This document shows, one piece after another, positions 23,476 to 32,500 of a stretch of DNA of 64,000 nt; the first letter of the stretch is position 1, and each line of letters starts with the position of its first letter. The stretch spans positions 93,842,537 through 93,906,536 of the forward strand of contig OZ024936.1 of the NCBI GenBank assembly GCA_964017235.1. Reading direction: 5' to 3'. The stretch comes from Sabellastarte sp. h YS-2021 (lineage: Eukaryota; Annelida; Polychaeta; Sabellida; Sabellidae). The translations under genes were made by a program, and so were the position numbers. Below the pieces are notes generated by a model. The model had not been told where the DNA came from. It saw nothing but the letters and a program-made list of their open reading frames with translations, and ran no database searches.

Positions 23476-23520
<45 letters not shown>

Positions 23521-26500
23521 AGCATGTTTTGTTTCTTATACTGCATTTGCTTGTGACATATTTTTCATATGACATGAGTCATAGTCAACAACCTGACCAG
23601 TACTAGATTACCCTTGTTCATATTACTCATGATATTTCTCCAGTTTTGTTCCATTCATACATAGTCATCAGATAGCCACTCACTTGTCCATTCATTTCCT
23701 TTTAATATGTTAAGAATTTTTATTTGGCTTACAGACATTTAAAAAATATTCATAAATATTCAGCATATGTGGTTGAAAATGTCATCTTAGTGCTTCTCTT
23801 TGTATTAATATTAATATTATTCAATATTTACACAATATTTATATTTCTGCAAGTTTCCCTACTAACTCTTGTTGAGTATTTATCAAATTTAGATCCTGAT
23901 AGATGCTGTAATATTTATTTGAGGATATCTTGTATTGTTCTGTAAGGGGCCCAAAACTGTCCCTTATGTGGAGGTAACCCGACCAAAATTCAACAAGGAC
24001 TTCATCCATACTTGCTGTTGGTCCTTTTTCACTGTCTCACAAATTATAAATATGTGAAATAAACTTTGAATGTAAGAATTACAGACAGCTTTATTCAAAA
24101 ATACATATTTTGTTTAAAAAGGTATCCTGTTTCTGCTATATAGTGCAAAGTTTTATTTGTGAAAAAAAAAGATTTTATAACCATTCACACAGAGCAACAT
24201 ATGTGAAAACACATGTGAAAGATATTTTCCCATGTAAAAGTCCCCTTATATATCCATGTTTAAATCTTGTTTCCCCACTTATCTTTATGAGCATCTATCC
24301 TCTTTAATTTCCTCAAATTTATCAATGGAAACTCATTAGAATCTATGCTAATGTGTGGTATATAAGTAAAGGTAATTAATTATAAGGGTATAAAAACTTC
24401 ATAGGTTTTCGTTATGTATTTATGTATATTTAAAGTGTGAATTGTTATTTACTATTTAGGCTATATTACAAGAGTTGTTAATAAATTTGTATGTATATAC
24501 ACAGTTTACAATATTCACACTGCAAGTTTGCAAGGTTTATACAGTACTGAATATGTTCTATGAAAACATAGAACTCATTATTGAATTCGCTATAACCTAA
24601 TTTTATAGGATGAAAAAATACCTAAAATACCATATTTTCTCATGCGTTTATTTTCATTATAATCTGACAGTTTAAAATCAACCAAATGAAGGCACAATAT
24701 AGATAATTGATCTGCCTATCAAAACCCCAGTTACCCTTCAGCCAGTATTGCCTACATTTGGCATCCAAACCCCATGAAATTTGTGAAGGCGGAAATTTTG
24801 AACATTTCTGTGCGTGTTGACAGGTGAAACAGGGAAAGATCGAGTTTCAAAATTTGTGAAGGCGGAAATTTTGAACACCTCTGTGCGTGTTGACAGGTGA
24901 AACAGGGAAAGATCGAGTTTCAAAATTTGTGAAGGCGGAAATTTTGAACACCTCTGTGCGTGTTGACAGGTGAAACAGGGAAAGATCGAGTTTCAAAATT
25001 TTGCAGACAGATGTGTATCACCAATTACAGGAATGAGGCGTTTAACACAATGCCTATAAACGTAGGCAATAGCCCTTGTATTGTGAAAATCCGGGTTAAT
25101 AGATACCTGATTGCCAGTATTATGAATCAACTTTGTACTGTTTTAAAAACTTGATAGAAATATAATACCCCCAGTGACTATCTTTCTGTACAATAAAGTC
25201 ACCTGTACCTGTCCTACTTTAAGTAAAATATTCAATAAGAAGTACATTCCAAAATGATGTCCTTGTTCAAGCATTGTTACTATCCTTGTTGTCACAGTGT
25301 TACTGTCCCTGTACCCTTATTGTTACTATACTTGTTCTAGCATTACTACTATTCCTGGTCACACATTGTTGCTATCCCTGTTCCAGCATTGTTACTTTAG
25401 GCACAAACTTATGGTCCACTTGATCTTGAGATGGAACTTGTGCAATCTTGTCATCAAAAGATCGTGCACCCTTCTTTAGGTGGTGCAAACAATTTCGAGA
25501 TGGAACTGCTCCAACTTAGGATATCTATCACAGAATCTTGAGATATGATTGGATCTATTATTTTTTTCATTTTTGTGGTGGTCACTGATTGGCTGATATT
25601 TTAGGGTTAGGATCCTAAGTTTGGCTGGCCAGTCTTAAGATGGAATGGGACAAGCTAGCACATCTTGAGACTGGCCAGCCCATTTTATGATGACATAGTT
25701 ATGTCAGCACCTTTAAATCTAGTAAATTTATGATGATATGTCACCTGTATATATAACAAATTTACAGATATGGTTAAATTCAATCCAATGTGAATAATGT
25801 ATTTGAACTCCTTATTTGCAATCATATGCAAACTATATGAAATTAGATAAAATATTTATTATAAAAAGTATTAAACCTTATAAAATGCCCCTTTTCTGTG
25901 ACAACAGAGCAATATCAAACTAATTAGAGTTTTTACATTGAAACCATTTCTACCCAGGGTAGTACACTGACCTATTTGTGAATTACCAATGAAATCATTT
26001 AACAGGCATGTGGGTGGAGCTTAAAGTAACCATCAAGGGTAGTATGGGTGGTCAGTGGTGTACAAAGGGTGTTTAGCTCATTAACAAAGAAAATTTTAAT
26101 ATTAACCCATTTTATTGGAGGGATGAAGGACATAGTTCACATTTCACCATCAGCAGGGCCAAATATGACTGTTCTTCACTATGCAAATGGTCAATGCAAA
26201 GGAACATGTATGTACAGTATTGTACACCTTTTGGCTTTTGCTAGTCTTATTCTAGGCTCTTAGATATTTTTTAAAGTATTATATTTTATATATTTTTCAA
26301 ATAGCAAGTACTAAGTGTGACTGAAAGAAGCAATTTGACCTACAGAAAACATAATTAATTTTCAAAGGGAGTCAGCATTACATTTTATGGTACATTCTAC
26401 TTAATTCTAACAAGAGTCTATTAGCTAAGGTCCAGGATCTAATACTAAGTTTTTATATTTCATGTAAAAGCCAGCGTAGTATTCGTACAGACTTACAATA

Positions 26501-29500
26501 TTTTATGTATTCAGCCAGGGGCTCTGGTACAGACCATGGGCAAGGCTAGATGTATTGTTACAGTGAATTGATAATATTATACACCAGGGTGTGGGATTGG
26601 TGTATTGAAAATATCACTTGAAGTATATGTATGGAAGAGCATTAGTGCCACAGAAAAAAATTTTTTGAATTGTCAACTTAGTATCTCCACATGTTGACAT
26701 AATATCTCAACATGTTGAGATACTATCTTAACATTTGCATAGTGAAGAACAGTTACTTAATATCTCAACATGTTGACTTAGTATGTCAACTTGTTGAGTT
26801 AATATCTCAACTTGTTGAGTTAGTATCTCAACATGTTGAGTTAGTTTCTCAACATGTTGACTTACTATCTCAACATGTTGAAATACTAAATCAACATGTT
26901 GAGATATTAACTCAACATGTTGAGATACTAAGTCAACATGTTAAGATACTAACTCATCATGTTGAGATAATAAGTTGACAACTAAAGAAAAAAACTTTTT
27001 TTTCTGTGGCACTAACACTCTTCCATATATATGACATATTTCAATGATGTGTAAAATATATCAAGTTACACAAATAATTTCTTGGTACTTCCTTTTTCCA
27101 AAATATCCTGCACCAGTTTTTCCTCATGTAAAGTATAGAAAAGCCCTGCAGGGAAAACCCATACAGAAAAAAGTCATACAATTTGTGGACCCCATTGAGA
27201 ACACCCTACACCATTTTTGAGACTGGATAGTCCTTTTCAGATAGTACAATGTGCAAACATAAACTGTTTCCTATCACTTACATATCACTTTTATTTTTTC
27301 AAAATTATTATTGTTTTTTACGGAGCCCAGGAAGGGACATAGAACTGTTTTCTTGGCATTTTTTTATCTCGTTCCCACGAGATAGGAAGTTATGGCCACG
27401 AGTTAGCAACTCATTACCACAAGTTAACAACTCATTACCACAAGTTGACAACTCATTACCACAAGTTAAAAAGTAGTTCCCAAAGGTTAGCAAGTTGTTC
27501 CCACATGATAGCAAGTTGTTCCCACAAGTTATAAAGTCATTCCCACAAGATACTAAGTCGTGCCCAGAAGTTAGAAAGTCGTTCCCACAAGTTAGAAAGT
27601 CGTTCCCACAAGATAGCAAGTCGTTCCTACAACATAGCAAGTCGTTCCCATAAGTTAGCAAGTCGTTCCCACAAGTTAGCAAGTCGTTCTCACAAGCTAG
27701 CAAGTCGTTCCCACAAGTTACCAAGTCGTTCCCACAAGATAGCAAGATAGCAAAATGCCTGTTTTATGGCACTTTCCTTGGTCCTTCTAAGATATTTCAG
27801 TATGTTACATTGGACTGGGTGCTATTTGGCACAGCATACCTTGCAGTATCTCCGCTGCACTGGATTCTCATACAAGCTATGTACCTAGATGCAGAAAAAC
27901 TCGTGTTTGCCAACTTGTGGGAACGACTTGCTAACTTGTGGTAATGACTTGCTATCTTGTGGGAATGACTTGCTATGTTGTGGGAACGAGTTAGTATCTT
28001 GTGGTAACGACTTTGCTAAGTTGTGGGAATGAGTTTATATCTTATGGTAATGACTTTGCTAACTTGTCGGAATGAGTTAGTATCTTGTGGTAATGACTTT
28101 GCTAAGTTGCGGGAATGAGTTAGTATCTTGTGGTAATGACTCTGCTAACTTGTGGAAAAGAGTTAGTATCTTGTGGTAACAACTTTCTAACTCGTGGGAA
28201 TGATTTACTATCTTGTAGTAATGACTTGCTAACTTGTGGGAATGATTTTCTAACTTGTGGTAATGACTAACTATCTTGTGGTAACGAGATAAAAAAATGA
28301 GAGAAAAACAGTTCTATGTCCCTTCCTGGGCTCCGTAGTTTTTAGAATTTGCTAAATACACATTTATGGTTTCGCAAACTAAAATATGAAGAAATACTTT
28401 TAACATTCACAATACAAATAACATATAAAAAATTATTGTATTACTATTGAAAGGAAAATAAACAAATCCCAATTGTCAAAAACAAATTTTAAGTTCAACT
28501 GACTGTAAAAATTCTGGAACATAACTCCATTTCTACTTGAAATTTCACTGCAATGTTCTTTTTGATTAGTTATCATCGAGAGATTGAGTAACTGTAATCA
28601 AGTGTGGTTTTACTTTGCTAACAAAGTGACTATTTTATTGTTTCTAAAACTACAAAGGGGCATGGGGATTGAAAATTACAGCACATGGTAGTTTCACTAG
28701 CAATTGAAATACCCTTTAAGTAATTATCAACCCTTTCATTTGTAAACTAACCATAATTTATAGGGCTTTCTCCAAGATCTAAAAAATGGTATCTTGCATT
28801 TCTACATGGATATTAAAAATTGTTGGGCTTTTCTCCTGTAGGGCTTTTCTTTGTAGGGCTTTTTTCCCGTTTCCAATCAATAACACTTTTTATAACCAGC
28901 CACTTGAGCCTTCATAATAGATTCTACTGGCCAGTCCTTAAAAGGTTCCAACAGACAATACATCATATTGTCCTGTTTTTTATGTGAACACAAATATTGC
29001 TCTACACATACATAAAGTTGCCACCCCTCAAATTTTATTTAAAAGAGGCACTGCCATATTAGGCAGGTCACTACCTGGCTTACTTCCCACTGGTGTACAA
29101 TGTAAAAACTCTATTATGTAAGATCCTGCAATAATGTCAGAATGTCGTATCACTACAACTTCAGTAAATTATTTGATCACATTATCTCCACTACATAGTT
29201 ACTAAACACTGATCAGAGGTCCAAAAGGTTAAATCTAGAGAGTTTAACCAGTTAAGACAGTGAAAAATCAACATAACAGGCATGGCTCCTTATTGCAACT
29301 TAAAGGGCCAAGCAACATAAAGCTAAAGTAAATCGGGAGCTGCACAAACCGCCTCTTTGCCAAATCGACCATTGGCAAATTGGTCCCTGAAAAACTCGGT
29401 CCCCAGGTATAAAATAATGAAATATAATGCAATGACAGTACTTTTATAGAGCTTAATCTTCATCATGCAGCAGACTCTGAGGCTAACAGATATTTATTTA

Positions 29501-32500
29501 GATCAGGTTAACATGTATCAGAATATTAATAACAAATAATAAGAGACAATTCTTTGTGGTCATATTATGTTCCTTTCATAATTTGACAACTTCTAAAGTT
29601 ATAATTTATCAGAGTCTAATTAACCTATTTCAAATATATTAGGGGGGCCACAGTGGCAGAGTGGTAACACTCTCGCCTCCCACCTCTGAGGCCGGGGTTC
29701 GGTTCTCGGCACAGCCTCAAGTGGGAAAGCCGGTAGTTGCTTGCCATTGGTCGGCAGTTTACAGTACAGAACTCTGACGAACTGTATGTACTGGTTTCCT
29801 CTGCCCTTCCAACTACCTGTCGTGATATGACCTGTACAGTGTTGAAAGCGACGTAAAAACCCCAAATAAATAAATAAATAAAAGATATTAGGGTGCTCCA
29901 TCAAGTCCTTTTAACTTACGTTTTAAAAAATATAAAATATAATAAAAAATATAAAAATATACAAGAAAGTGGTAGCATACACTACATAAACCAGTGACTT
30001 AGTATCTCAAGTGGCATATACAAAATTTAGCATGGCATTTATTTCTCCAGCAGTAAATCCATTTTGAAAGACACTGATATATAGCAGATATTTAATATTC
30101 CCTACATGTTTTAAGTCTTCCTCATTAATTGTATTGATAACAGTGATCTCTCACTGCTTTCAAAAGCTTATAATTAGAATTACATATTATTTTTATTGAT
30201 ACATTAGTCTGGTAAATAATATGATTCAGAGTTTTAGATATATTAGAGCAACTACCATTTATACATTATTCAGTAAACAGTTTAATGAGGGTTGATTTGG
30301 TAAAGGGCCTATTTGTCTGAGGCTTTCGCAAGTCAACAAAAAGCAAACTTGCTTCTTGGATCTTTAACCTTTCCATCTTGGGTTCAAACCTTGGGTGAAC
30401 TGTTATAGCTGGAGCAGCTCTGGCTCATAGATCGAGTTAATCATAAATTCAAGCCCAACATTAATGTCCCTATTGTAACAGTTTTACTGCCATTGTTACT
30501 ATCCAGTTTTACATTGTTACTATCCTTGTTCCCTCATTCTTACTATCCTTGTTTCCCATTGTTACTATTCTTGCCATGTTACTACTATCCCTGTCACCAC
30601 ATTGTTATTATCTTTGTTCCAATATTGTTACTCTTGGTCCTGCATTGTAAAACTATCTCTGTTCTCATAAAGAATAAAGGGTGGTATTTGGACCCCTCTA
30701 TTCCTCTGAGAGGTAATTAATTATACATATTGATTAATGCCAATAGGAACAATGGTTGGGACATCCGTAATATATTTGAGTTCTTGCTTTCTTCTTGAGT
30801 TCAGAAGTAATGTTTTGGTGGTAAATTTTTGCGCCAATGTTTTTTATGTATATGGGTACTGCTAAAATTGTTAATTTTGAACAATTTTGGACAGTAGGTA
30901 CATTTGGCCAGTCTAGTGCATACTGGGGGTAGTGTAGACAGAAGTTTTGCTTCTTTGGTGGGAGGTTAATTGATTTTGTTGGATGTGGAATGCAACTGAA
31001 AGAGTTACCATAGTAACCAACCCACTTGTTGAATAGTACCCAAATTGGCATAAATACTACCATATAAGCTTCCTAAGCCTTAAAATAGCCTAAAGTACTT
31101 CATGAGGTCAAGTCTCAATATACATTCAAGCCTCTGATGAGACTGATCCTACAGGAAGTCGAAATGTAAGCTAATAACTAGCTATATTTTAGGCTCAATA
31201 AATCCTACTGACATAACAGCAAACCCTTCTTTTTATCTCTGTTCTCACATTGCTACTTCCTTTATTGTTGCTATCATTGTTTCCTTATTTGTTACTATAG
31301 GAATAACCCCTGACCAAACCACGGTATACGCAGAATTTTACCATGGTTTGAGGTTATAAACCCCGAAGGTGAAACCATGGTAAAATTCTGCATATACCGT
31401 GGTTTGGGAGGGGATTATTCCTATTCTAACATGACAAATTATTTTAAGATGAATAATTATTCCAAATTTTACTGTAAAACGGTCATTGTTACGACAGCCA
31501 TAATGAGCGATAAAAGGGAGTAACAGGGTTATGCTGTATTTTACCGGGGAAGTATTTCGTCGTTTAGCCAATCAGAATCGAGGACACATCCGTGTCATGT
31601 TAGAATATCCCTGTTCCCATATTGTTACTCCCTCTATTTACTTATTGATACCACCCTTGTATGCACCTTCTTACTTCCCTGTACCCACAATGTTACTGTC
31701 CTTGTTTAAGCTGTTGCTACCTTCCCTTTTCCTATATTGTTACAATCATTATGCCAGCATTCTTACCATTCTTTTTTATTCATTTTACAATCCTTCCTGT
31801 TTTTTTTTGTCTTTTAGTTGCAGGGTTCACTCATGACAGCCTCTGTAGTGGAGATGCTACTGGGCCTCACTGGAGTTGTGGGATTTCTGTCAAAGTATAT
31901 TGGTCCACTTACCATTTGTCCCACCATCACACTTGTTGGTATATCGCTTTTCAAAACAGCAGCAGATTTTGGTGAACAAAATTGGCCCATCTACTTCATG
32001 TAATTGCCATGAATATTCATACTGTATTTATTACAACTGTTAAAATTAAAAAACAGCTTTTATTGTGAGAATGGGGTGAACACATTATAAGAAAACTTTA
32101 TGAATTTTCTGCAAGAATGTCCAGCAACTAGGTGTAATACGTTTTAGTACTAACTGTACCTCAGGTTTGACGTTGCAGGAATTAACTCACACTTATGTGA
32201 CTCTAGTTTCAAATCTAGCTCATGATAATGACACAATAGAATAGAATAGAATAGAACATTTAAAAAGCGCAAAATTGCTACAACATCCTCTAATGTGCTC
32301 GAAGTCAAAAAGGGAAAGTCCAAGGACATATCAAGTCAAGATCCAAATAAGTGCCCACTGGGGGGAGATGTACTATGGTGGAGGATATGCAAGTCTAAAC
32401 AAATAGGTTTTTAGCTGGCTTCGGAAACCTGTTATTGTGTGCTGTGATCGGACCGATTGTGGGAGTTTGTTCAATTCAGCAGAGAAGCCATTGCAAAACC

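Follow-up and report, generated by a model that had tools for sequence, protein, structure and literature searches.

A foldback element with 21-bp repeat arms in the genome of Sabellastarte sp., likely of the IS3EU/GingerRoot type

In the genome of the polychaete Sabellastarte sp. h YS-2021, arrays of one short tandem repeat face each other between inverted ends. This locus raises the question whether such a structure is a transposon or a chance inversion of a satellite and, if it is a transposon, to which type it belongs. The window, i.e. the whole stretch of DNA that was analyzed, comprises 64,000 nucleotides of contig OZ024936.1 (assembly GCA_964017235.1, positions 93,842,537 to 93,906,536 of the forward strand).

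Anatomy of the element and its surroundings

The foldback layout with inverted arms and inverted ends, which had been proposed in an initial annotation of the window, is present at this locus, and its dimensions were corrected. The element spans 1019 bp (27319 to 28337) and is bounded by perfect terminal inverted repeats of 33 bp (TACGGAGCCCAGGAAGGGACATAGAACTGTTTT), each separated from its arm by a spacer of 19 bp (Table 1). The ends had been placed at 27321 and 28335 with inverted repeats of 28 bp, which misses 2 bp at either end, since the terminal TA is part of the element. The repeat unit measures 21 bp rather than 20 bp, 18 units were counted per arm where about 19 had been given for the left arm, and the centre has a length of about 155 bp instead of 159 bp. 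With Tandem Repeats Finder, a period of 21 was obtained for both arms, and the right arm showed an additional 43-bp rhythm. An open reading frame of 145 amino acids on the minus strand (27308 to 27745) consists almost entirely of left-arm repeat and could easily be mistaken for a gene; that it runs over the arm is due to the 21-bp repeat corresponding to seven codons.

Table 1. Coordinates of the element and its host repeat in the window
Feature	Position	Strand	Remark
Host repeat of ∼3.2 kb carrying the element, ends approximate, inverted TAGAGTTTTTACATTG ends (by eye)	25925 to 29113	.	Alignments to L002, L006 and L007
Left target-site duplication, GTTTTT	27313 to 27318	+	Occurs once in each of the four unfilled sites read
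Left terminal inverted repeat, perfect over 33 bp, TA at the outer end	27319 to 27351	+	
Left arm, inward-running array of 18 repeat units (21 bp each), consensus GTTCCCACAAGTTAGCAAGTC	27371 to 27748	+	
Centre, about 155 bp	27749 to 27903	+	Short form of the non-coding middle domain common to longer copies
Right arm, 18 inverted 21-bp units as in the left arm, partly in 43-bp two-unit pairs	27904 to 28285	-	
Right terminal inverted repeat, perfect over 33 bp, TA at the outer end	28305 to 28337	-	
Right target-site duplication, GTTTTT	28338 to 28343	+	

Among the matches listed (rows for L001, L002, L006 and L007), the alignments of the host repeat to L002, L006 and L007 begin or end near 25.91 to 25.93 and 29.11 to 29.13 kb. 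The TAGAGTTTTTACATTG ends of the host repeat also have TA at the outside, and no 6-bp duplication is visible around them at the window copy. The host repeat carries two satellite-armed structures and occurs in the genome with and without the element.

The second structure (26642 to 27015) is palindromic, with inverted ends TTAGTGCCACAGAAAAAA that enclose an array in which the palindrome TATCTCAACATGTTGAGATAC recurs with a period of 21 bp. Its 18-bp end had 103 exact matches in the genome (control 0), partly in facing pairs. A relationship between the 21-bp unit of the element and this neighbouring array (26.68 to 26.97 kb) was not supported by shuffle tests: the unit is identical to a hand-picked variant of the array at 12 of 21 positions and to its consensus at 9 of 21, and 8.6 and 88% of the shuffles, respectively, were equally good.

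Further repeats are located around the host repeat. Two diverged, similar 23-bp arrays in the same orientation flank it (25260 to 25396 and 30490 to 30632), a 73-bp tandem repeat with 3.1 copies and 98% match is found at 24777 to 25001, and a run of 42 C at 23477 to 23518. The region 29645 to 29885, terminating in AAATAAATAAATAAA, is by eye presumably a tRNA-derived SINE.

Target-site duplications and unfilled sites

The flanks outside the TA ends were compared in 15 rows, which had been selected non-randomly from best matches, exact ends in contig order and pairs chosen by the authors. These rows, all with both ends available, remained after collapsing copies at the same places (L001, L018 and L030) and copies at the host site of the window copy (L002 to L008 and L031); a further two pairings, which were alternatives in L043 and L055, were dropped. 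An exact 6-bp duplication was found in 8 of the 15 rows (GTTTTT, GGGATC, GATTAC, CACACC, TAGGTC, GAAATG, AGATAG and GATATG), five of six positions matched in four rows, and three rows showed no duplication. No row matched exactly at 3, 4, 5, 7, 8 or 9 bp, and the only exact 2-bp match was that of L051, whose 6-bp match is also exact. When left and right flanks from different elements were paired as a control, 3 of 210 combinations reached five of six positions and none was exact. The rows without a duplication are L016, L033 and the 15-kb pair L047/48. Since L016 and L033 have nearly identical flanks in opposite orientation, they appear to derive from a single insertion whose surroundings were duplicated, which reduces the number of independent sites to 14. 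Within the collapsed group at the host site, the duplication is exact in L004, L006, L007 and L008, one position off in L005 and two positions off in L002 and L031; for L003, no second end was found under the threshold used.

The joined flanks with one GTTTTT were used as a query for copies of the host repeat that lack the element. All 40 matches that were scored, out of 488 candidates, run through the join with no element in between, and the four unfilled sites that were read each contain a single GTTTTT: ATTGTTTTTAGTATTT (ATTGTTTTTAG). A partner transposase with TA target preference had been considered in the initial annotation, as would fit a Tc1/mariner-like or other TA-duplicating element, and TA is indeed present at both outer ends of the element. 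However, a duplication of TA predicts the empty site ATTGTTTTT-TA-GTTTTTAG, with TA between two GTTTTT, and it leaves the further 6 bp that are duplicated in 8 of 15 rows unaccounted for. The single GTTTTT in the unfilled sites therefore indicates that TA is the element's own end and that the target duplication is the 6 bp outside TA..TA, which makes a TA-duplicating element extremely improbable.

A chance inversion of a satellite, or a spread by segmental copies only, would require no transposition at all. The window copy and several close relatives do share one insertion site within the host repeat, and the copies at this site (L001 to L008 and L031) are best read as one insertion that was multiplied as a passenger. 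In contrast, eleven sites beyond that of the window copy have different flanks and their own 6-bp duplication (seven exact, four at five of six positions), and copies of the host repeat without the element exist, so that an origin without transposition is hardly credible. The 6-bp duplications and the unfilled sites show that the element has transposed.

Copies, arms and centres of the family

The genome search with the ends and the repeat unit, as proposed in the initial annotation, revealed copy numbers beyond chance. For the 25-bp end, 1478 matches at up to two mismatches (732 forward and 746 reverse) were found in the 1.79-Gb genome, compared with none in either orientation for the reversed-pattern control. 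Two neighbouring 21-bp units in strict form gave 9697 matches genome-wide versus 0 for the control. The termini are TA..TA in the window copy and most listed pairs, and a changed terminal TA was observed in L011 and L043 (TA/CA), L033 (TA/TT), L031 (TA/AA) and L002 (TT/TA).

Among the 100 unit-pair matches listed from the start of contig C1, 12 clusters could be distinguished by eye (within about 3 kb). In six of these, both strands carry units and those of the plus strand lead in every case, which is foldback-like; one of the six has an additional plus-strand unit afterwards. The other six clusters show units on a single strand under the strict pattern, which misses many units. Nine of 20 10-kb stretches (L040, L042, L046, L052, L053, L054, L056, L057 and L058) lay beyond a right end, outside the element, and were used as flank only; these contained no strict unit pairs, the exception being the first ∼65 bases of the element in L056 and L057. 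For the right ends L041 and L045, a search over 10 kb revealed no left end.

Two groups of ends have a common flank. L019 and L020 (G000:C1:108817507 and 108817706) are two left ends 199 bp apart in one orientation with the common flank TAAGCCCTAGAC, and the first of them shows no array in the 60 bases seen, corresponding either to a solo end or to an incomplete tandem copy. The nearly identical right ends L021, L022 and L023 (G000:C1:110.825 to 110.837 Mb) are spaced 5.7 to 6.6 kb apart and are probably a tandem duplication containing an element end.

The units per strand in 11 elements were 18/18, 32/8, 19/9, 7/14, 23/13, 0/17, 17/15, 22/21, 39/12, 20/13 and 45/36. Arm length thus spans 0 to 45 units per strand, while the ends stay. 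A one-armed copy, which in the initial annotation had been named as the sign of a chance satellite inversion, was found in L038. Its left arm is missing, yet both ends and an exact 6-bp duplication are present, and L038 is therefore a variant of the transposon and not an inverted satellite. Mean unit identity was 0.770 for units of a single arm, 0.751 when the two arms of an element were compared and 0.754 to 0.755 between elements, and 0.768 between elements at an equal position near the end. Slippage or gene conversion in the arms had been suggested before; a change in arm length is supported, whereas strong recent homogenization is not apparent from 0.770 within arms against 0.751 to 0.768. 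It is concluded that the copy number of the units changes, but that the arms, with similar identities within and between them, are barely homogenized one by one.

In 418 units from these 11 elements, accepted at up to seven mismatches to the consensus and thus enriched in consensus-like units, the commonest letter reaches 0.89 to 0.99 at each position of the core T-T-M-C-C-A-C-A-A-G-W-T-A, except for its two two-letter sites (M and W). Two A's beyond the core are equally well kept, and the remaining positions are more mixed. By analogy with Galileo, the regular spacing of the 21-bp units at two helical turns, together with their conserved core, suggests that they are putative protein-binding sites. 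Sequence comparison of the terminal repeat with the 21-bp unit showed no similarity, so the sequence gives no sign that one protein binds both.

The longer copies L011, L039, L049, L050, L051 and L055 (1.5 to 2.4 kb) have a common centre of roughly 500 to 950 bp, about 150 bp of which is retained in the window copy. The two parts of this centre are co-directional in L039, L048, L035 and L050, and the last part is inverted in L011, L049, L055, L051 and others, which points to internal recombination. Differences in the centre by codon position were 0.158, 0.097 and 0.120 and thus gave no coding signal, many of the rows compared being non-independent, as the copies concerned are related or duplicates. 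In L048, an open frame of 135 codons crosses the centre; it was considered as a gene and rejected, with a best Pfam E value of 0.2 and no third-position excess; the Pfam scan covered the centre peptide of L048, and other copies were listed for open frames of at least 150 codons.

Transposase candidates, assignment and proposed mechanism

None of the copies read contained a recognizable transposase, and the search for an autonomous partner was unsuccessful. Searches of the genome with IS481 and IS3 models resulted in many integrase-like matches in long open frames, which, judged from the frame lengths, look like retrotransposon integrases. When 100 integrase-like matches (C1 to C4) were compared with 100 listed exact ends on these four contigs, the nearest was 12 kb away. 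Four integrase genes are 98 to 100% identical to the query protein (L063-L064, G000:C20:38488077, C19:31894748 and C11:80843144). The integrase core is present in this group (read in part, L063 and L064), and by eye the region after it is presumably an OTU protease; we take the group to be possibly a young Ginger-like element. In 1391 bases of L063/L064, the best match to the TACGGAGCC end had 9 mismatches of 20 on either strand, and the group was rejected as a partner.

Sea-urchin foldback (TU) elements also have inverted arms with short tandem repeats; their sequence is different and their duplication measures 8 bp. In the passages of the literature used here, sea-urchin foldbacks are mentioned (PMC4079207), and foldback elements are mostly assigned to Mutator, Galileo being an exception that belongs to P (PMC4079207, PMC3573991). 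Likeness to the FB elements of Drosophila had been noted in the initial annotation, and the window family does share the layout of FB, Galileo and Tetris, with long inverted arms of tandem repeats, variable in length, around a non-coding centre. In the parts of the respective papers drawn upon, Galileo of Drosophila is described with internally repetitive inverted arms, a P-type transposase and a 7-bp duplication (PMC3573991), and Tetris, placed in Mutator by its authors, as a non-autonomous foldback with 8 to 10 bp duplications, whose arm repeats, like those of FB, are able to become satellite arrays (PMC4079207). Duplications of 7 to 10 bp differ from the 6 bp of the window family, in which none of the 15 rows matched exactly at 7, 8 or 9 bp. 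The likeness is one of architecture; a 6-bp duplication with TA..TA is the published signature of IS3EU/GingerRoot, and an element of the P or Mutator superfamily is considered quite improbable.

In the passages of PMC10045372 on which the comparison is based, IS3EU families always have TA..TA termini and usually 6-bp target-site duplications, and GingerRoot has a 6-bp duplication and mostly TA..TA. Both features were found in the window family. Its long 21-bp satellite arms are a difference, as they are unmentioned in the published description from which the likeness is drawn, in the part of it used here. An autonomous copy of this type would carry an IS3/IS481-like DDE transposase. Membership of the window family in IS3EU/GingerRoot is likely from these sequence features, and it is unproven because integrases were found but none is tied to the family's ends. 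For the same reason, that no transposase is tied to it, the family could represent an undescribed superfamily with TA ends and 6-bp duplications; this is rather unlikely, as the combination is already that of IS3EU/GingerRoot. Dada elements have a 6 to 7 bp duplication within small RNA genes, and in the part of the report consulted the U6 and U1 families are without terminal inverted repeats (PMC3706591), whereas the window family has 33-bp inverted ends and unrelated duplication sequences. The oyster satellites CgiSat35 and CgiSat47 are annotated as DNA/IS3EU in the section used of PMC8268682, which shows that tandem repeats had been connected with IS3EU before. A full-text literature search (titles, starts of abstracts and some passages) gave no published description of an IS3EU foldback with satellite arms.

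The window element is thus most probably a cut-and-paste DNA transposon, non-autonomous and of the IS3EU/GingerRoot type, that later spread passively in a host repeat. An autonomous relative would provide a DDE transposase in trans; this enzyme would bind the terminal repeat, cut at TA and insert the element with a 6-bp stagger. The 21-bp units with their conserved core TTMCCACAAGWTA may serve as secondary binding sites for the transposase or a helper, and changes in arm length would result from slippage or from unequal exchange. Later, the window copy would have been multiplied as a passenger of the ∼3.2-kb host repeat. For the arm repeats of Galileo, secondary transposase-binding sites have been proposed, and in the passages used such repeats are called convergent among superfamilies (PMC3573991).

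It is tentatively proposed, as a possibility with the odds somewhat against it, that an IS3EU-type lineage evolved the foldback independently of P and Mutator, and that extendable arms of phased 21-bp binding sites improve the capture of a transposase made elsewhere, so that the family scatters a satellite through a large genome. If a third type of transposon has the foldback architecture, here with ∼1500 ends and unfilled sites in one genome, this would support repetitive arms as a convergent trait, and the naturally occurring arms of 0 to 45 units offer a graded series for studying the binding-site idea.
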